In this document: positions 2,985-52,452 of the stretch, piece by piece
Position numbering within the stretch: the first letter of the stretch is position 1
How the letters are laid out: each line of letters begins with the position of its first letter
Assembly (NCBI GenBank): GCA_038380435.1
Contig: JAWZYU010000010.1
Span: forward strand, 45,790,135 to 45,854,134
DNA length: 64,000 nucleotides
Origin: Ryuthela nishihirai
Taxonomy: Eukaryota; Arthropoda; Arachnida; Araneae; Heptathelidae
Direction of reading: 5' to 3'
Made by a program: the position numbers and the translations under genes
Notes under the pieces: model-generated
Told to the model about the DNA's origin: nothing
Databases searched by the model: none
What the model saw: the letters and a program-made list of their open reading frames with translations, nothing else

Positions 2985-4610
2985 ATCATCATCATCATCC
3001 TCAAGCAGCCATGGGCTACGGAGGTCCAACCAGACCATGCAGTTTAATTCTCCAAACATATCTGACTTGAGCTACATCTGCTGCATCTGGCCCCTGCACA
3101 CCAATTCTAATAAGGTCCTGTTTGACATTGTCTGCCCACCGCATCCTAGGTCTCCCCCTCCTCCTGAGGCCTCTAAGCACACTGTTCATAACCCTATTCG
3201 CCAATCTATAATTATCCATACGGGCAACATGGCCAAACCAGCGGAGTCTCTCTCTGCACAATATGCTACTTAAAGGAGGTTGCAGACTCTTTTGCCTAAC
3301 CTCATCATTAGTTACAAAGTTAAACCACCTAATACCCAAGATACCACGTAAGCATATAGAATCAAAAGCATCTAGTTTCCTGTTATCTTGTTTACACAGC
3401 GTCCAAGTTTCACTACCATAACTAACCCTAGAAAGAACCAAACTATTATACAGTCTAATTTTAGTCTCTAGGTACATACGCCTATTTCTCCACAATCTCC
3501 ATAGATTCTTAAAAGTCCCGGCAGCAATCCCTATTCGTCTGTTAATCTCATGCCGCACATCATCAGTATACGTTACATAACTCCCAAGGTAATTAAACTG
3601 TGACACCTGCTCAAGACTGCAACCATTCAGATGAACTGAATCACAACCTGCCTGACCAATTTTCATCACTTTAGTTTTCTCTCTGTTTATAACCAAACCT
3701 ACTCTACTACCAGTCTCATCAACATCAACATCATTTGCCAAAAGGGCTAAATCATCAGCATAATCTAAATCAGAAATTTTCGTATATCTAGCCCATTTAA
3801 AGCCAAAATCTTTCCCTTGAAGTGAATTTCGCATAACATAATCAATAACCAAACTAAAGAGAAAAGGAGACAAAATGCACCCTTGTCTAACACCAGAAGA
3901 AATGCTAAACCAATTGCTACAAACCTTACCAACTCTCACACACGATTCAGTGTTATTATAGAGAGCTTTCATTATGTTAACTAACTTGTCTGGTATACCA
4001 TATGATCTCACAATCAACCACAAATTATGACGATCAGCACAGTCGAAAGCCTTTTTGAAATCAACAAAGCTAGCAACCAAAGGTTTCTGAAACTCTAAAC
4101 ATTTCTCAAGAATCTGCCTAAGTGAAAATATCTGATCCACACATCCCCTACCACTTCTGAATCCACATTGCTCATCACGCAATTGACTGTCAACCAGATT
4201 CTTAATTCTATTAAGCACAATCATGGAAAGAACTTTCCCTGGAACAGAGAGTAGGCTGATACCCCTATAGTTATCACAAGAACTCGATCACCTTTTTTGA
4301 AAATAGGGATAATAATAGCTCCGGTAAAATCTTTAGGAACCATGCCTTTATCATAAAAGTTATTCAAAATTTCAGTCATCCAAATGGTAACCGAAACATT
4401 CCCAGCTCTGAGCATTTCTGTAGTAATTTCATTTACCCCTGGGTATTTATGAAGTTTAAGTTTAGAAATAGCCAAAATAACTCAGATTGTGTTATATAGT
4501 CAACATTAAAGCCCCCAATACATTTGTCATCATTACAAACAATGGGAGTAGAACTAACCACATTGTTTAGAACATCACTGAAATGCTCAGCCCACCTAGC
4601 TATGACAGAA
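2985..4610 (-). mobile_element. RTE-like non-LTR retrotransposon, 5'-truncated
   Basis: A reverse-transcriptase LINE read on the minus strand. Its 3' end at about 2985 is a run of GAT/ATG triplets after CCATGGCTGCTTGAG; short simple-repeat tails instead of poly(A) are typical of RTE elements. The 5' end near 4610 is truncated inside the RT domain (RWAEHFSDVLN). Two other fragments of the same family lie at 10275-10985 and 15972-16010. It sits in the intron after the exon at 4898-4725, reading in the same direction as the host gene. Confidence 0.85.
3016..4475 (-). pseudogene. Reverse transcriptase of the RTE-like LINE
   Basis: This encodes the RT palm, thumb and C-terminal region. Visible in order: LHKYPGVNEITTEMLR, FVDFKKAFDCADR (block A), GVRQGCILSPFLFSLVIDY (block B), SDLDYADDLALLA (catalytic YADD), then NYLGSYVT and the C-terminal RWFGHVARM and RGRPRMRWADN motifs seen in RTE and related LINEs. 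The 402-codon 3' part is open. A one-base frameshift near 4280 separates it from the upstream 84 codons, and a residue stretch after YADD is shortened (NDVDVDETGSRVG). There is no endonuclease domain because the copy is truncated. Probably inactive. Confidence 0.88.
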
Positions 4611-39880: not shown

Positions 39881-40504
39881 AAGCTTATCTTTATGATACA
39901 TTTTAATGATTTAGATCAGGGATGCATAAGCTCCGGTCCTTTTAACAATTTTATGTGATTAGCGGGAAAATTTTAAAACATAAAATAAATCTTTTAAATT
40001 TGGCTCTACTGAAGTTGTTTTATAAAGATGAGAGACGACAATTTGAAAAATATCATGCAACTAATTGCAATGTTCAGCAGATTATTTGTGGGATCCAGTC
40101 CATTCTTACGATAATGGTTCTAAACCGAATTTAGTTTTGACTTTAAAAGAACCTTTAAAATAATATAAATTTAATATAATTAATAATTATTAATAAGTAA
40201 ACCAACAAGTAAAATGTAATAAATAAATTCAAACTCTTTTGTATTACACAAATTATTTTTCTATTCGGCTAATTGTCAAAAATATTTGTGCGCCCCTGAT
40301 ATTTATTAAACTACACATGAAATTATGCTTCACTGATTCAATTCATTTCCGCCAATTTTCAGTGAATAATAACAACGTTTAACACTTTTTAAACTTTTTA
40401 AAATAAAGAACTCTTTTGTTTACAGAGATAAATTAAAAATTCATTTTGTGTTGGATAGGTATTGAAGAATTATTACGATATGCACTTTCAGAATCTCTCT
40501 AAAG

Positions 40505-41350
40505 CTATAATTACGTTCTCTAGCGGTGGAAAAAGGCGAAAATTCAAAAATTTCAAAAGAATATTGCAAGCGATGTATTTACAATAGAAATTTGACATTT
40601 TGGTGGTGGAATGTGAAGGTCAGGAAGTTTTCATTGTCATCAATGAGTTGACCCCTTAGACCAAGAGGAGGTGGGAAAACACACCTTTTTAGTTTTAGCA
40701 GATAATTGTTTGTTTTTTGAGATAAATGGTAATTTTTTGGGGGTTAGATAGGAATTGATAAAATATTATGATTGACACTTTTAAAATCTTCCGAAAATTA
40801 TAATTGCGCCCCTCTAACGGTGGAAAAATTGCAAATTCTGAAATTTGAAACAAATATTACAAACGACGTATTTAGTCTAGACATTTCAAATTTTGGTCGT
40901 GGAATGTGACTGCCATGATGCTTCCATTGGCAACAATGAATTAATCTCTTAGACCCATGGTGGGTGGGAAAACCACATTTTTTGTTTTATCAGATAACTG
41001 TTTTTATTTAGAGATAAATGAGAAATTCTTTTTAGGGTTAGATAGGAATTGAAAAAATATTATGATTCGCACTTTCGAAAACTTTCGAAAACCATAATTG
41101 TGTCATCTAACGGTGAAAATGGTTTGAAAATTCCAATATTTCAAGCGAATATTGCCAACAATGATAGAAATATTAAATTTTGATAGTGGAATGTGAACGT
41201 TATGAACTTTCGATTGGAAACTAAAGAAAATGATAATAGGAAACTATTTTCCAGTTTGATTGGTACTAATGAAATATTATAATTCACATTTTTCAAATAC
41301 TTAGCGGTTTTAATATATATATATCTTTGCAGATCAGTGAAATGATGAAA
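40505..41350 (+). repeat. Satellite of about 293 bp, locus 2 (three units)
   Basis: Units start TCTCTAGCGGTGGAAAAAG (about 40517), CCCTCTAACGGTGGAAAAAT (about 40807) and CATCTAACGGTGAAAATGG (about 41102). Each contains TTTTGGTGGTGGAATGTGAA or a close variant, CAATGARTTRA and GGGTTAGATAGGAATTGA. Same family and orientation as 7166-7655. Confidence 0.85.
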
Positions 41351-41738
41351 CGACAGAGATGTTTTCGAGTTTTATAAATAATATATATACGGAAGAGAAA
41401 TTTGAAAAGTTGGTGGTGATTTTATCAGATATTCTACTGACAGCAATAATCTACCCACTTTTCTGAGAGAGATAAGGAAAATGCAGATTTTTTTATTTAA
41501 AAATTAAAAGACGAATACTTTTATGTTGTATAATTACTAATAAAATATTATTTGCATCATCCGCTGGCTCAAAATAAAACTTTTAAGTAATAAAACAGTA
41601 GGTAAAGGAAAAACTTCTTTCTCTTTGAAAACGAGTTTCTCATGTGCGCCAGAGGCGATATGCCTACTTTTTGTTTCATTTCTTTTATCTTCAAAACAAC
41701 CAATTTTGGTAAAAGGTTTTATTTTGCAATGAATATAT

Positions 41739-42379
41739 TGTTGCGGATCACAAAAATGGATAGCCACTGAGCGTGAGTATTAAAAGCTATATTTCAAAAC
41801 CAAATTCAATACAAGGTAAATTGTTACAAAGGAAATATGGATGAAGTATCTTATTAACAAATCAACTATTAACATGCACAAGTCATCAATCTTCCTGCGT
41901 AGAGCACACAATATCAGCTCTGTGTATTTTACTAAATACTACCTTTTACTTGATTTACCAGGTCACCCGAAGATCTTCACTCGTAAACCAATTCTCGTCC
42001 TGTGCTAATAACTGTTCACACACTAGCCGAACAAAAAGACAGTCCGTGTAGACATTCGAAGTTAGCCATAAAAGTTCCCACTTTTATACTTCCGCGTATA
42101 CACAACACATCAAGTTACTTCTTGATACTTAACGATAAAAGATCCCACTTTTATCCTTCCGCGTATACACAACACATCAAGTTACTTCTTGATACTTACG
42201 CGCACTGTCTCAGAACAGCTCACCGTCCATTTTCGAACTCACCGACCGTTACAACACACAACGACCGTTCCAATACAAAACGACCGTTAACGCTCCACTC
42301 TTCTTCTCCAAATTCTCCCAAAGTTCTTATTCGTTGGCTGAAACTTTGCTTTCGGTTGCCAGATTCTTCTGTCGTAACA
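41739..42379 (-). repeat. 3' LTR of the thymidine phosphorylase retrotransposon
   Basis: 641 bp, apparently identical to the 5' LTR. It contains an internal direct duplication (CTTCCGCGTATACACAACAC twice, about 68 bp apart) and encodes the last 30 residues and the stop of the internal ORF. Confidence 0.95.
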
Positions 42380-44311
42380 CTGCCCCCTTCCTAGGTCTTG
42401 TTCGTCCCGAACAATTCTGGATTCCAAAGCTTCTTCAGTTCTTCGATGAAACATGTTACGAAACTTGTTCAAAGCATTGCCGTTATGCAGAACCTTACGG
42501 ACACGTGATGCTTCATCTACCCTATTATCCACAATGTTCACAAAACGCAGAAGTTCTCCTAACTCTTCGACGAGCTCTTGCAGTTCTAAGGATCCGTTAC
42601 CAAGGAAACACTGAACAGCTTCCATCACTTCCAGAGAGTTGTCAACAGAGTTTTCAAGAGGTGAATCCATGTTGCTGATAACAGCTGAACTCTTCATTCC
42701 ACGAGTTTGTGATGCTGCAACCATTTTCTTAACTAAATCAACAGCAACATCTTCTGTACTGATGAGATCAATAGCTCCTTTTCCGAATTCAACATCATAA
42801 ACCAAAGCGCACACTCCTTCAGCCAGCTCCACTGTCTGTCCTACGATGCAGCATCCGACGTCTTCCATCATCTGCTCGATTTTATCTTTAGTGCAGTCGA
42901 CTGTGAAGCTAGGGATGGATTCCAATTTGTCCAGAGTATCTCCCGTCAATTGGAGAGCACGACCGGAGATCATAGGGACCTTGAGACCTAAAGCAGCAAG
43001 TGCAGGAGCCAAGACAAGACTCACTTTGTTGCCGACACCTCCTGTGCTGTTTTTATCTACCATCCGATGGCGCCACTCGGGTCTCCAGCAAAACACATGA
43101 CCCGAGGAGGTCATATTTGCTGTTTCTTCCGAATTCACTTTCTTGGAGCTCTCATTGTACTTAGCCAGGGAAATATCAGTCATGATTGCCAAATTGTTCA
43201 TTCTGGAGATCAGCGACGAGTTCTGTAACATGATATTGTCCACTTTAGAGCTCTTGTAGTCGTGATAAAACTTTTCTATATCCTTATAATCTAAATGGTT
43301 ATAATGTCCAAATCTGCACATTGACTGTTCAGAAAAGAAATTCAGTATGGTTTCGTTGAGATTGTCTGAGGGCTTTACTTCTCTCTGATCGTAACTCTGA
43401 GGCTTAGTTTCATCCAGAAAGTTAGTCTTTGAAGTACTGTCTCTGCCTGAAGCTCTTTTACTAGCATCACCTGTTATGCTTCTAAGCCATCCTTCGGAAT
43501 TCCTCTTCCTTAAATCCCCACTTTCTATAAACGATTCGAGTGTGGCTATATGCTTCGGAAAAATCTCTCCGACTTCCGCGGTAAAGTCGAATGGCACTTT
43601 GTATCTATGATGAATGGACGCCTCTTCTTTACTCGGACCACTCTGCGAAACGTAAACTCTGTTTCGTTCCCCTTCATTACCACTCGTTACTCTGCCTTTG
43701 CGATAATTGTCCATGACGCATTTTGCTGAGAGCGAGGAATAGAATACCTTTCGTGTGGATCTCTCTTCAGATCGTGCCAGACTTGTATACCTAGGTATTT
43801 TGAAGTGCAAAGCGTACTGTATAGTCTCACAGCTCTCTGATCTGTGTGATTGTTCTTCACAGTTCCTAGACATGTCACCAGCGACATAGACACTCTGCCA
43901 TGCATTACCAGTAGTTGCGTGATCAAAGGCATTTTCTGCGCTATCTCTACGATTCTTGATTTCCAGTAGCAGATCCACATTTTTATATGCGTTGCCTTTC
44001 TCTTTTTCTTTTCCATGTTTACAATCTAACTTAACACTATCAAGATCATCTTTTTCACTGACAAATTCAACATTTAAACTATTGCATTGTCTATTGAGTT
44101 CGGTTTTATGATCCTTGAAGTGATCAATAAACTTACCAACTTGAGAAGCCACTTCAGCTCTCATCTCAGTATTTTGTGCGGCCATTTCGGCTTTCAAGTC
44201 ATCTTTTTGAGAAACTATCTCAGTTCTCAACTCATTATATTGTGCGGCCATATCGGCTTTCATATCAGTCATCAGCTTTATTAACTCATCCATACTTCTA
44301 GTGAAAGGCAT
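42287..44311 (-). CDS. Retrotransposon ORF: gag-like coiled coil fused to a thymidine phosphorylase fragment
   Basis: 674 codons, uninterrupted, ATG 12 bases past the primer-binding site. Residues 1-90: heptad-like, with repeats such as QKDDLKAEMAAQ and a MPFTRS start, like Gypsy gag leaders. Residues 100-395: not recognised. Residues about 402-633 follow thymidine phosphorylase: SGHVFCWRPEWRHRMVDKNS, TGGVGNKVSLVLAPALAALG, KVPMISGRALQLTGDTLDKL, EDVGCCIVGQ, EGVCALVYDVEFG and MDSPLENSVDNSLEVMEAVQ. Compared with the family, about 35 residues after CCIVGQ (holding the base-binding Arg, Ser and Lys) are missing; the catalytic His of K-H-S is Asn (421); the signature T-G-G-T is T-G-D-T; and the C-terminal domain is cut. 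Phosphate-loop Lys420 and Ser422 remain. Phosphorolysis of thymidine is therefore unlikely. The ORF crosses the polypurine tract and ends in the LTR. No introns remain, which suggests capture from mRNA. Confidence 0.92.
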   Translation of the reverse strand: MPFTRSMDELIKLMTDMKADMAAQYNELRTEIVSQKDDLKAEMAAQNTEMRAEVASQVGKFIDHFKDHKTELNRQCNSLNVEFVSEKDDLDSVKLDCKHGKEKEKGNAYKNVDLLLEIKNRRDSAENAFDHATTGNAWQSVYVAGDMSRNCEEQSHRSESCETIQYALHFKIPRYTSLARSEERSTRKVFYSSLSAKCVMDNYRKGRVTSGNEGERNRVYVSQSGPSKEEASIHHRYKVPFDFTAEVGEIFPKHIATLESFIESGDLRKRNSEGWLRSITGDASKRASGRDSTSKTNFLDETKPQSYDQREVKPSDNLNETILNFFSEQSMCRFGHYNHLDYKDIEKFYHDYKSSKVDNIMLQNSSLISRMNNLAIMTDISLAKYNESSKKVNSEETANMTSSGHVFCWRPEWRHRMVDKNSTGGVGNKVSLVLAPALAALGLKVPMISGRALQLTGDTLDKLESIPSFTVDCTKDKIEQMMEDVGCCIVGQTVELAEGVCALVYDVEFGKGAIDLISTEDVAVDLVKKMVAASQTRGMKSSAVISNMDSPLENSVDNSLEVMEAVQCFLGNGSLELQELVEELGELLRFVNIVDNRVDEASRVRKVLHNGNALNKFRNMFHRRTEEALESRIVRDEQDLGRGQCYDRRIWQPKAKFQPTNKNFGRIWRRRVER
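42380..42392 (-). other. Polypurine tract of the LTR retrotransposon
   Basis: AGGAAGGGGGCAG lies immediately before the 3' LTR in element sense, in the position of the plus-strand primer. It is translated as part of the ORF (residues ending LGRGQ). Confidence 0.9.
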
Positions 44312-44322
44312 TCAATTAAATT

Positions 44323-44341
44323 AATCCCACTTCTGACACCA
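44323..44341 (-). other. Primer-binding site, tRNA-Leu type
   Basis: TGGTGTCAGAAGTGGGATT starts two bases after the 5' LTR. It is complementary to the 3' end of an animal tRNA-Leu whose 3' sequence is AATCCCACTTCTGACA plus CCA. All 19 bases fit. Confidence 0.92.
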
Positions 44342-44343
44342 AA

Positions 44344-44984
44344 TGTTGCGGATCACAAAAATGGATAGCCACTGAGCGTGAGTATTAAAAGCTATATTTC
44401 AAAACCAAATTCAATACAAGGTAAATTGTTACAAAGGAAATATGGATGAAGTATCTTATTAACAAATCAACTATTAACATGCACAAGTCATCAATCTTCC
44501 TGCGTAGAGCACACAATATCAGCTCTGTGTATTTTACTAAATACTACCTTTTACTTGATTTACCAGGTCACCCGAAGATCTTCACTCGTAAACCAATTCT
44601 CGTCCTGTGCTAATAACTGTTCACACACTAGCCGAACAAAAAGACAGTCCGTGTAGACATTCGAAGTTAGCCATAAAAGTTCCCACTTTTATACTTCCGC
44701 GTATACACAACACATCAAGTTACTTCTTGATACTTAACGATAAAAGATCCCACTTTTATCCTTCCGCGTATACACAACACATCAAGTTACTTCTTGATAC
44801 TTACGCGCACTGTCTCAGAACAGCTCACCGTCCATTTTCGAACTCACCGACCGTTACAACACACAACGACCGTTCCAATACAAAACGACCGTTAACGCTC
44901 CACTCTTCTTCTCCAAATTCTCCCAAAGTTCTTATTCGTTGGCTGAAACTTTGCTTTCGGTTGCCAGATTCTTCTGTCGTAACA
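44344..44984 (-). promoter_or_regulatory. 5' LTR (promoter) of the thymidine phosphorylase retrotransposon
   Basis: Same 641 bp as the 3' LTR. In element sense GGAAGTATAAAAGTGGGAAC (TATAAAA at 44693-44687) is a good TATA box, about 345 bases before the primer-binding site. The TATA-containing segment is partly duplicated in the LTR, the second version reading GGATAAAAGTGGG. Confidence 0.85.
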
Positions 44985-44989
44985 ATATT

Positions 44990-45920: not shown

Positions 45921-46432
45921 CCTGAGAATGCTACTAATCGGAATAGCGGACTTAAAAATTATTAAGCATAAATATTTATTATATACATAAATTATTATTA
46001 CACATAATTTTCAAGAACACTTTTAAATTGCTAAAACGTAGGCAAAAGTTTTTTTAACTACAACAGCGTTCCGGTTCTGTCTTACCCCCCCCCCCTCCCT
46101 CAACCTTCTACTCGGATCACTTGGCAGCTCTCCGTTATTTTTTTTAGATACGGCAAGAAAAAAAAGTACACACTTTACCAGCAGTTATTACCAGTAGAAA
46201 TTATATCGCATTGATATCGGACTTTTATTTCATATCTTTTTTTTTTTCATTTTGGTTCCTTCCCCCGAAATTTTGTTATCCTCCCCTCCCTAAAATAATT
46301 TTGCGCAAACGATTGGCAGAGATGCGTGCATTCTATGATTAATTAAACTTTCATCGAATAATACAATTTACACATGTTTCGTATTAATATTTCTTCTCCT
46401 TTTTAGCAAAAAGAGCTGAAAATAAAACTTAC

Positions 46433-46778
46433 TTTTAAATGCCCACGTTTTTAGTTTACGAAGTGCGGTCATCATCTTTATAAGGCTCGTTGAACATTCT
46501 GGCGAGATGTCCGCATCAGTCGCTCCATTTACCATAAGAGGCAGCATCCTTTTTACCACGTTCGCCATGATTTCCTTCAGAGCTTTTTCCATATTCTTCC
46601 ATGCTACTCTCGTCATCTCAGCTTCCGTTTCATTCATCTTCATCAGATTCATATCTTCGACAGTAACATTTTTCAATTCAGTTATTACCGTAACCTTTTC
46701 CTGTGCAACAGAATAACTATTGACCACGACTAGAAAGAAAAAAATCAAATCTACCATTAAAATAAAATTATTTGCCAT
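46433..46778 (-). CDS. nrf-6-like: NRF-6-like membrane acyltransferase, first coding exon
   Basis: Starts at the ATG at 46778 and runs 115 codons plus one base to donor GTAAGT. The N-terminus MANNFILMVDLIFFFLVVVN is a signal peptide. An acidic helical stretch with N-glycosylation sequons (NVT, NET) follows, then SPECSTSLIKMMTALRKLKT and WAFK. In the family, 'S-x-(E/x)-C-x-x-x-(L/x)' followed by 'W-A-(L/F)-(K/R)-M-(L/F)-D-(S/A)-x-GK' bridges the first NRF Cys to the core; here the Met is split and completed by the exon at 36110. This start is chosen because the signal peptide begins there. The remaining protein is spread over exons down to 4725 and beyond. Confidence 0.93.
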
Positions 46779-46954
46779 TTCTATTCTTAATCCACTTATT
46801 CAGCTGGCTGGAATAACGGTTCTTTCACCAAGAAGCTTCCCTCGACAACATCTGTTCGAGTTCTGATGAGCAGTATTATCTTCTACCCATTTATTTTGCA
46901 CGATAGTTCAAAATAAGTCTTGTGGATGACCTTCAGGAGCAAGCAAGCGTTTGA

Positions 46955-50176: not shown

Positions 50177-52452
50177 ATACAGAGTGTTTCAAAAAGGACG
50201 CAACCCTAAATATAAGAGACTTACGCACATGTACCTTTTATGCCATAATGTCAGTCAGTTAAATTAGTCAATTGGCATTACTGTACTCAAGGTTAACAGT
50301 CTTTAGCAGTTGAAATGACCTTGTCACGCGCTAGTCTCACTCAAGCATTCATTCCTTTGTGTTGTGTCAGCTATGTCGTTTTCCAAAAACGAACGTGTGT
50401 TTATTGTTGAGACTTATTGTGTGTACAAATCTTACAAATGTGTGAGAGAAGAGTTTGAGTTGAAGTTTTCTCAGTGTGCAGTTCCCAACAAGTCGACAAT
50501 TTCTCGTTTGATTGATAAATTTCGTGACACTGGGTCTGTACAGGATCGAAAGAGCCCACGCTGGCCATCACTGTTAACTGCCGAAGTTCTTGATGATGTG
50601 TCTCAGCGTTTAACTCGCTCACCCAGAAAATCTCTTAAAAAGTTATCTTCACAGGTTGGACTGTCACCGGCTACTGATTTCAGGGCTACAGAGAAGTTAA
50701 AATTTCATGCATACCACATTGGTGTCGTTTATGAACTGAAAGAACCAAACCATGAAAAAACATTTACGGTACTGTCATTGGTTTCGTTCTTTTGTTGATG
50801 AAAATGGAATTGAGGTGTTGGACCGTATTTATTTCAGTGAGAGGCTTGGTTTCAATTGGATGAGTATGTGAACAGTCAAAACAGTCAAATATGGAACAGT
50901 GAAAATCCTCACACTTTTCATGAATGACCATTACACGCACGGAAAATTGATGTTTGGTGTGCAATTTCCCGTCGTCGTGTGATAGACCTTTATTTTTTTA
51001 CTCAACTCTAACTGGTGAAGTTTATCATGACCTCATCCAATAGTTTATTGCGCTATTGGATGTGAATGAACGAGAGTGTTGATTTCAACAAGATGGTGCG
51101 ACCGTCCATACTGCAAATGACATAATGGTCACGTGGAAGAAATTTTTGGTGATCATTTGATTTCAAAGAATTTGTGGCCCCCAAGATCCCCAGATCTCAC
51201 TCCTCCACATTTTTTCCTTTGGGGATATCTTAAATGTGTAGTGTTTCAAAACAATCCTCATGCTTTTGAAGATTTGGAGGCTATCGTAGATCGTATAATC
51301 ATATTCGATGTACCGGGTAATAATTGTATCCCTAACCATCTCCATCATAAAGATATGCCTATTTGGTATGAGTAAGAACAAAATGTATAAGTAAACCACC
51401 CTTAGGTGGGCCCCTAAGGGCAAACATAAGAAAAGCTAAAAATAGCAGTAAAATTGTATAAGAAACCTAAAACGGGTAGGTCTACTTAGAGAATGCTACC
51501 GTTTAAGACCTCTTGTACTTGTTCAAAACAGTATGATCGTAAAGAATAAGAGAAGAAATAATCTCATTGGGATTATTGCTTGCAGCCTCAAAAAACTTTG
51601 TATATTATGGTCAATGCCCCGGTCTTTTGAAGTTGTCTGTTAGTGACAAACCAGGGGGCATCGACCGCAGTTCTCAAAATCTTTTTTTGTAAGACCTGAA
51701 TCTTACGAATATTGGTGGGTCTAGTATTCGCCCATATGGGTGAAGCATAGAGAATCACCGGTCTGATGATCATATCATAGAGTAAAAGCTTATGATCAAT
51801 CATTAAAACGGAATTTCTCCTAAGGAGTGGGCCTAGCTGGCCTGTCAATGAATTGACTTTGGAAACTATATTATTTATGTGATAGTTCCACTTTAACCTC
51901 TTACGTATAATAACCCCAAGATATTTGACTGAATCACTCCAATCAATGGGAATATCTTGTAAATGGAAGCAAGTGGGATTCATAATACGCTTTCCAGTAA
52001 AAAAGATGGCAGAACTCTTGTCAGAGTTAATCTTTATCTTCCATTTTTCGTACCATGTGAACAGCTCGGTCAAACTATGCTGCAGCCTCTTCACAGCGAT
52101 AGCAGGGCCGAGGGAGGGAGATAGTAAGACAAGTGCAAGATGAATACTATCAAAGGAAGGTAAATCGTATAAGTATAAAGAGAAGAGTGTAGAACCCAAA
52201 AGGGAGCCCTGAGGCAACTTGAAGGCTAACATTGAAAGAGAGATTTTAAACATAAGAAAACAAACATTACGAAAGGTGGCTGCAAATGTCATGAAACGGG
52301 TACGAACCTGCATTCAGGTTGCAGGAAATCACTTTCAACATCTGTTGTAAAGGTAGATATATGTCTAATTTGCAGCTTCTGAAATGTGTGTCTTTTGCAC
52401 GATTAAATAGAAAAATACAATAGAGGGTTGCGTCCTTTTTGAAACACCCTGT
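50177..52452 (+). mobile_element. DUF4817-type DNA transposon, full length with terminal inverted repeats
   Basis: Terminal inverted repeats of 28 bp start CAGRGTGTTTCAAAAAGGAC and differ at one base; TA lies on both sides. The plus-strand coding region starts at ATG 50373: MSFSKNERVFIVETYCVYKS and STISRLIDKFRDTGSVQDRK form the HTH, and LTRSPRKSLKKLSSQVGLS the linker. Further on, frameshifted, are YFSERLGFNW, YVNSQNSQIW and LWPPRSPDLTPPHFFLWGYL, the last catalytic block. A LINE fragment is inserted at about 51285-52215. Frameshifts near 50670, 50800 and 50990 show it is inactive. 'WPPRSPDLTPxDFFLWGYLK' is the family hallmark. Confidence 0.9.
51285..52215 (-). mobile_element. 5'-truncated non-LTR retrotransposon (Jockey/CR1-like RT)
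   Basis: The minus strand reads LPQGSLLGSTLFSLYLYDLP (the block B region of RT), then, after a deleted catalytic YADD region, WYEKWKIKINSDKSSAIFFT, VKYLGVIIRKRLKWNYHI and YDMIIRPVILYASPIWANT. These are typical of Jockey-type RT C-termini. It lies inside the DUF4817 transposase; TTTGGAGGCTA at the left and CTTGAAGGCTA at the right may be the target duplication. Confidence 0.82.

Follow-up and report, generated by a model that had tools for sequence, protein, structure and literature searches.

Captured host genes in LTR elements

Plants and retroviruses supply the best-known cases in which long terminal repeat (LTR) elements captured host genes. The closest systems described are the maize LTR element Bs1, in which segments of three host genes form a hybrid chimeric gene (PMC13317346, PMC7264820), crocodilian endogenous retroviruses (ERVs) with captured KIT-ligand and nectin3 sequences reported to be under purifying selection (PMC4299795), and LTR-mediated retroposition in animals, which involves template switching between an LTR element and an mRNA (PMC5408686, citing Tan and coworkers). 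The case described here is an LTR retrotransposon on the minus strand of a 64,000-nt stretch (the window; C10:45790135-45854134, with positions below counted from its first letter) of the 3.11-Gb genome of the spider Ryuthela nishihirai, which carries a captured thymidine phosphorylase (TP). With a probability of about 0.85, it is best explained as a member of a Bs1-like, multiply transducing, non-autonomous Ty3/Gypsy-type family that is moved by a relative and in which TP is a passenger.

The family resembles Bs1 in being an LTR element with several host gene segments in a chimera, but differs in its animal host, its TP and zinc-finger-like cargo, the large number of young copies, an open reading frame (ORF) that reaches from the Gag start to the Pol end, and a donor that was not found. 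With the crocodilian ERVs it has in common that animal LTR elements captured and multiplied host coding sequence; there, however, the captured ORFs stand beside viral domains or replace env, are under purifying selection and include six named nectin3 insertions, whereas here most of gag and pol is replaced, the TP drifts neutrally and the copies are more numerous. The mechanism proposed for LTR-mediated retroposition is the one proposed here, although its products are retrocopies rather than a propagating chimeric family. A literature search for TP captured by a retrotransposon returned no prior case, its sole match concerning a human ERV promoter, and none of the best-ranked matches for gene-capturing LTR elements of arthropods described one in its title or the beginning of its abstract. 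As far as this limited search goes, the kind of element is already known and the novelty lies in the combination of TP cargo, a large young family, a Gag-to-Pol ORF and neutral drift. The family offers an animal case in which many young copies display stages of capture and recombination side by side, in numbers sufficient to probe selection on the captured gene.

Anatomy of the element

The element is bounded by two identical LTRs of 641 nt, the 5' LTR in its own sense (44344-44984, minus strand), which has sister copies throughout the genome, and the 3' LTR (41739-42379, minus). On both sides stands ATAT (44985-44988 at the right flank, 41735-41738 at the left), a 4-bp target-site duplication (TSD) as is typical of the sister elements. 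The primer-binding site (PBS), TGGTGTCAGAAGTGGGATT, begins 2 bases past the 5' LTR (44323-44341, minus) and recurs, unchanged or nearly so, in all 20 elements compared (see below). The polypurine tract (PPT), AAGGGGGCAG, adjoins the 3' LTR (42380-42389, minus). An earlier interpretation of the stretch from its letters alone (the sequence-only reading) had described the paired LTRs with a 4-bp target duplication, the PPT and a 19-base PBS of supposed tRNA-Leu type, all of which were located, and had deduced a recent insertion, with which the identity of the LTRs agrees.

The interior is occupied by a lone long ORF of 674 aa plus stop (42287-44311, minus), which begins just past the PBS at the Gag start and ends at a Pol-side stop codon 90 nt within the 3' LTR. 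Approximately residues 1-99 (44016-44311, minus) are a remnant of the Gag N-terminal coiled coil, up to the end of which the DNA is common, in pieces of 84-95 % identity, with that of a TP-less relative, L042, whose own Gag is identified by a zf-CCHC match and by its relatives. The following region, approximately residues 99-391 (43139-44015, minus), has no relatives among the sequences searched and includes a degenerate TP-like N-terminus apparent in the alignment. Captured TP occupies residues 392-621 (42449-43138, minus) and is interrupted at about residue 495 (near 42829) by a 96-nt deletion of the catalytic loop. It is matched by Pfam PF00591 (E 3.4e-22), by the NCBIfam thymidine phosphorylase model (E 7.6e-55, yet under that model's whole-protein cut-off) and by the human TP structure 2j0f (E 1.8e-49), the latter in two stretches whose query ranges overlap owing to the loss of 32 residues (96 nt) between them; the C-terminal part of TP is absent as well as the loop. 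The match lies close to about residues 402-633 of the 674-codon ORF, in which the sequence-only reading had noticed TP hallmarks. Residues 622-674 (42290-42448, minus) are a Pol tail from beyond the integrase p58 C-terminal domain, 98 % identical to residues 941-994 of the full copy L031, and are joined to TP through a deletion with the 3-nt microhomology GTT.

The family in the genome

The element belongs to a large family. When the genome was searched with the LTR, 40 of 1369 candidates were scored, every one of them matching at 99-100 % identity. With the ORF as query, 126 matched stretches came from 66 scored of 12,362 candidates, all except one of them stop-free and many with open frames of 900-1000 aa. 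Three queries from different portions of TP, for which there were 2191, 2304 and 2256 candidates, each yielded 150 scored matches. These counts, ranked by score, are lower bounds, and the three TP lists overlap one another. From 20 places picked by LTR similarity, 19 gave an LTR pair, which together with the window makes 20 elements, one of them (L042) TP-less; L047, which has no simple LTR pair, is excluded from element counts. The two LTRs are identical in 14 of the 20 and differ in the other six by one mismatch or 1-3 gap positions, and 4-bp TSDs flank all but L038. The family members inspected are thus young insertions, though picking by LTR similarity favours young ones.

In most of the full-length members fetched, the span between the start codon of Gag and the end of Pol codes for 897-1121 aa, arranged as a Gag coiled coil, a region that matches nothing, the greater part of TP, a C2H2 zinc-finger-like stretch and the integrase C-terminal tail. 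In L031, a full copy of 994 aa, the coiled coil in common with the L042 Gag extends from residue 1 to approximately 157 and is followed by the unmatched region (approximately 158-450). TP (464-819) is aligned with residues 91-451 of human TP at E 1.3e-77 and runs uninterrupted for approximately 356 codons. Residues 856-914, approximately, are similar to C2H2 zinc fingers (PF13465, E 2.7e-4, plus many C2H2 structures), residues 917-940 resemble Integrase_p58_C, and the remainder is the pol tail reaching into the LTR. A single ORF thus reads in sense through gag remnants, host-gene segments and pol remnants, the TP firmly identified and the zinc-finger part weakly scored.

The same fusion in many other copies, found by searching with the LTR and the interior as had been suggested, bears out an LTR retrotransposon with a captured TP, which now rests on the paired LTRs, the TP profile matches and the same order at other loci. 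The picture of a single capture needs revision: TP stands, but the chimera also contains Gag/Pol remnants and, in the full copies, the C2H2 zinc-finger-like part, so that more than one capture is likely; the element in the window is a shortened family copy. It is next to inconceivable that an ordinary host TP gene or retropseudogene came by chance to lie between LTRs or unrelated repeats, as the LTR-gag-TP-pol-LTR order recurs elsewhere in the genome, flanked by TSDs. Duplication of an LTR by the assembler is ruled out by the occurrence of the same LTR and ORF at many other genomic places.

A TP-less gag/pol relative

The LTRs of L042 are 99.2 % identical to that of the window, and its PBS and PPT are the same. 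It encodes a Gag with a zinc knuckle (zf-CCHC) as well as RNase H, H2C2 and integrase core domains, but no TP. RNase H precedes the integrase, as in Gypsy-type gag/pol. A nested LTR piece (L042:2308-2854) lies between the Gag and pol ORFs, opposite in direction to L042's own LTRs.

Among the 47 hits to the L042 Gag, the best-scoring named relatives are Araneus sequences, followed by leech and others, coral included. The Gypsy-type Gags of spiders (Araneus, Nephila) are 32-42 % identical to it, yet no TP fusion was seen with them: the best 120 hits of the window ORF are of at most 566 aa and have TP domains only. Two further relatives of the L042 Gag, P0124 and P0126 (63 % and 44 % identity), are filed under Salmonella enterica and are probably animal DNA in bacterial assemblies.

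Mosaic copies

The window copy carries two in-frame deletions, each of which occurs separately in other copies. The 96-nt loop deletion is flanked by the direct repeat AGCTGG, for which reason exon skipping was rejected as its likely source. The place of the loop is aligned in one stretch without a gap in 13 other scored copies, and all five that were fetched (L073-L077) have the same junction. By the second deletion, TP passes at NKFRNM into the pol tail; L078 and L079 have this junction too and lack the loop deletion. The TP of L045 is followed immediately by 1394 nt with 98.9 % identity to the 3' part of L042 (its integrase end and LTR), the two overlapping by 14 nt where they meet, so that L042-like sequence stands in place of the zinc-finger part. 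These mosaic junctions, in the window and in L045, imply that the copies and their gag/pol relative exchanged parts, perhaps in the manner of co-packaged RNAs. The window copy itself is, to judge from its junctions and LTRs, a recent product of deletion and recombination.

Origin and mobilization

The preferred explanation of the family, capture by and dependence on a Gypsy-type relative, would require Gypsy particles to have taken up a host mRNA, which template switching then linked to the element. Host-derived sequence (the unmatched region, most of TP and the C2H2 zinc-finger-like part) would in this way have replaced most of gag and pol; what the element retains is its LTRs, its PBS and PPT, the beginning of gag (5') and the end of pol (3'). 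For packaging and copying, the resulting chimera would depend on enzymes from a relative whose LTR is almost the same, and it would recombine with co-packaged copies. Non-autonomy with a related Gypsy-type partner, as suggested by the sequence-only reading, is upheld insofar as the chimera has no pol enzymes of its own and L042 has a near-identical LTR; the partner itself is only partly accounted for, as L042 is defective.

Several results weigh against this explanation. No intact autonomous partner was seen in L042, the gag/pol relative inspected. Its two long ORFs gave no protease or reverse transcriptase (RT) match, which precludes an RT-based classification, and outside its LTRs and ORFs just 494 nt remain, largely the nested LTR piece; with this piece between its Gag and pol ORFs and hardly any other sequence remaining, L042 is itself defective. 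The Pfam zinc-finger scores lie under their curated cut-offs, and the Integrase_p58_C match in L031 (E 5e-6) falls just below, at a score of 26.9 against a cut-off of 27. Nor did searches for relatives and in PDB find donors of the remaining segments: the unmatched region of L031 had no relative at E ≤ 0.001 among 3067 candidates (residues 100-470 searched), and its best PDB match, for the region before TP, was only E 0.26. Lastly, no standalone host TP gene, whose exons the sequence-only reading had wished to compare, was found with a spider TP N-terminal query, the PF02885 profile or the conserved TP core, so that the capture from spliced mRNA put forward by that reading is a supposition. 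The N-terminal query gave a single hit (E 4.4), at which the best TP match of the DNA (L080) was no better than E 0.27. Both matches of PF02885 lie at a single locus, which is of bacterial type, and this search had no animal positive control since all 14 genomes serving as controls are bacterial or archaeal; the 150 scored matches of the TP core, at 77-80 % identity, included none standing out as a host gene. It is only a possibility that TP was lost from the host, because the gene could escape notice if its exons are split by introns, if the element copies swamp it or if the assembly is incomplete.

In a FastTree phylogeny of TPs (123 tips, 364 columns), the element TPs fall in one clade (0.975) with the TPs of the horseshoe crabs Limulus and Tachypleus, a Stegodyphus TP and four further TPs. 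Their pairing with the horseshoe crabs has a support of 0.70, and the stem is long (0.67). Both the TP and the Gag sequences thus point tentatively to a chelicerate. The root as printed is not meaningful because L040, a faulty fragment, falls outside the clade of the other 122 tips.

A row of bacterial-type genes was noticed within a 75-Mb contig (L081, G000:C16:11093500-11098900), which represents contamination, misassembly or transferred DNA. By eye, we take these genes to be trpD/trpC-like, moeA-like and a LysR-like regulator.

Fate of the captured protein

The TP of the family is very probably not a working enzyme, because segments of its active site are changed in the aligned copies and the loop deletion has itself multiplied. 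In seven other copies compared with five animal TPs, the conserved R-(D/E)-x-TAT segment has K for R, GGT of the glycine-rich loop has become GDT, and one position of the VDKHST motif is variably H, N or Y. These are active-site segments of TP. The conserved catalytic segments are not intact in the window either, which has no loop between VGQT and LAEG.

Selection was assessed from single-nucleotide variants in 35 copies, 19 chosen by LTR and 16 of 17 drawn from approximately every ninth row of the TP-match list; the seventeenth, L066, which is 15 % divergent, was excluded, and 15 multi-nucleotide variants were set aside. The missense/synonymous ratio is 2.67 in TP and 2.52 in the region before it, against neutral values of 2.65 and 2.73, respectively. 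Over 17 copies, NG86 dN/dS is 0.77 (0.46-1.29) for TP, 0.57 (0.36-0.95) for the region before it, 0.64 (0.48-0.86) for the coil, 0.51 (0.36-0.73) for the zinc-finger part and 0.55 (0.39-0.79) for the tail; the last two values include out-of-frame rows, and recounts without these leave few variants. Both measures thus give no sign of purifying selection on the TP part, at limited power, and constraint outside TP is possible.

It could be argued that TP is functional cargo, kept because the enzyme or a TP-containing particle protein helps the element or the host, for instance through nucleotide pools. Intact copies are indeed 46-49 % identical to a spider TP over approximately 350 residues, most scored copies have a long open frame, stops are absent from 130 shared variants (below), and the upper bounds of dN/dS are below 1 for the coil, the region before TP, the zinc-finger part and the tail, with the reservation just given for the latter two. 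Nevertheless, the neutral missense/synonymous ratios, the dN/dS range of TP, the active-site segments that differ from those of host TPs and the spread of loop-less copies make this explanation improbable, and working cargo was rejected as a likely role for TP.

Maintenance of the open reading frame

On the idea set out in PMC9073684, variants shared by at least two of the 35 copies were considered separately. These comprise 94 missense, 36 synonymous and no nonsense changes, whereas approximately 5.7 nonsense changes would be expected among the 130, a result that independent variants would give with a chance of approximately 0.003. When variants of every frequency are counted, seven were seen against 12.7 expected, all of them singletons in three decayed copies (L059, L062 and L072). 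Codons 175-843 are open in 13 of the 17 drawn copies and decayed in four. The common stop, 90 nt inside the 3' LTR, is reached by 14 of the 19 TP-bearing elements with LTR pairs and missed by L037, L038, L041, L043 and L045, each through a change of its own. Frameshifts in these 19 elements are singletons outside the repeat-rich coil; 14 gap runs within the coil that are not multiples of three are probably alignment splits in repeats and were not used.

A second TP-bearing lineage (L082, G000:C1:119655000-119659300; L083; L052; L053) has its frame broken within TP by a tandem repeat at codon 555. Past the zinc-finger part, L082 and L083 have a different sequence, and the LTR of L082 is just 80 % alike, over 199 nt. 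The open-frame lengths of L082 (363 aa) and L083 (325 aa) recur among the TP core matches, of which, among 150 rows, at least 16 show open frames 361 or 363 aa long and 11 show one of 325 aa. This recurrence suggests that the frame breaks of the second lineage are shared and multiplied, so that spread in general does not need an open frame. An early conclusion that an open frame is required was weakened by this lineage.

The absence of shared stops could also mean that the ORF is kept open while its amino acids are free to change, the protein being irrelevant, as a translated RNA with a short 3' untranslated region (3'UTR) would escape nonsense-mediated decay, or as translation in cis is needed. 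It is consistent with this that the ORF takes up the whole interior in the lineage of the window copy and most elements end at the same stop, that none of the shared variants is nonsense and that the nonsense changes and frameshifts observed (the latter outside the coil) are singletons. Moreover, in Rous sarcoma virus RNA the placement of stops and long 3'UTRs are reported to matter (PMC2925335, PMC5580461). The second lineage, however, multiplied with a frame-breaking tandem repeat, recency and few master copies could account for part of the signal in what is not a random sample of copies, and the multi-nucleotide variants were left out of the count. Frame maintenance of this type is therefore regarded as a possible but rather doubtful explanation. 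Broader still, and correspondingly more speculative, is the suggestion that the young lineage might inherit an open frame rather than a protein, drifting stop-free under RNA quality control, and that the element may hold the only TP of the genome. If so, the capture of host genes would be favoured because they serve non-autonomous elements as frame-keeping filler. The neutral missense changes and missing shared stops, set against a broken-frame lineage that spread, make the question of selection testable in this family.

Other features of the window

A tandem repeat of approximately 293 bp in 2.5 copies (40424-41144) lies close beside the insertion. Long ORFs at 3016-4287 and 51588-52313 (minus) look like non-LTR reverse transcriptases, judging by eye from their motifs. 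A minus-strand ORF, at 46368-46799, appears by eye to resemble the start of arthropod nrf-6-type proteins.

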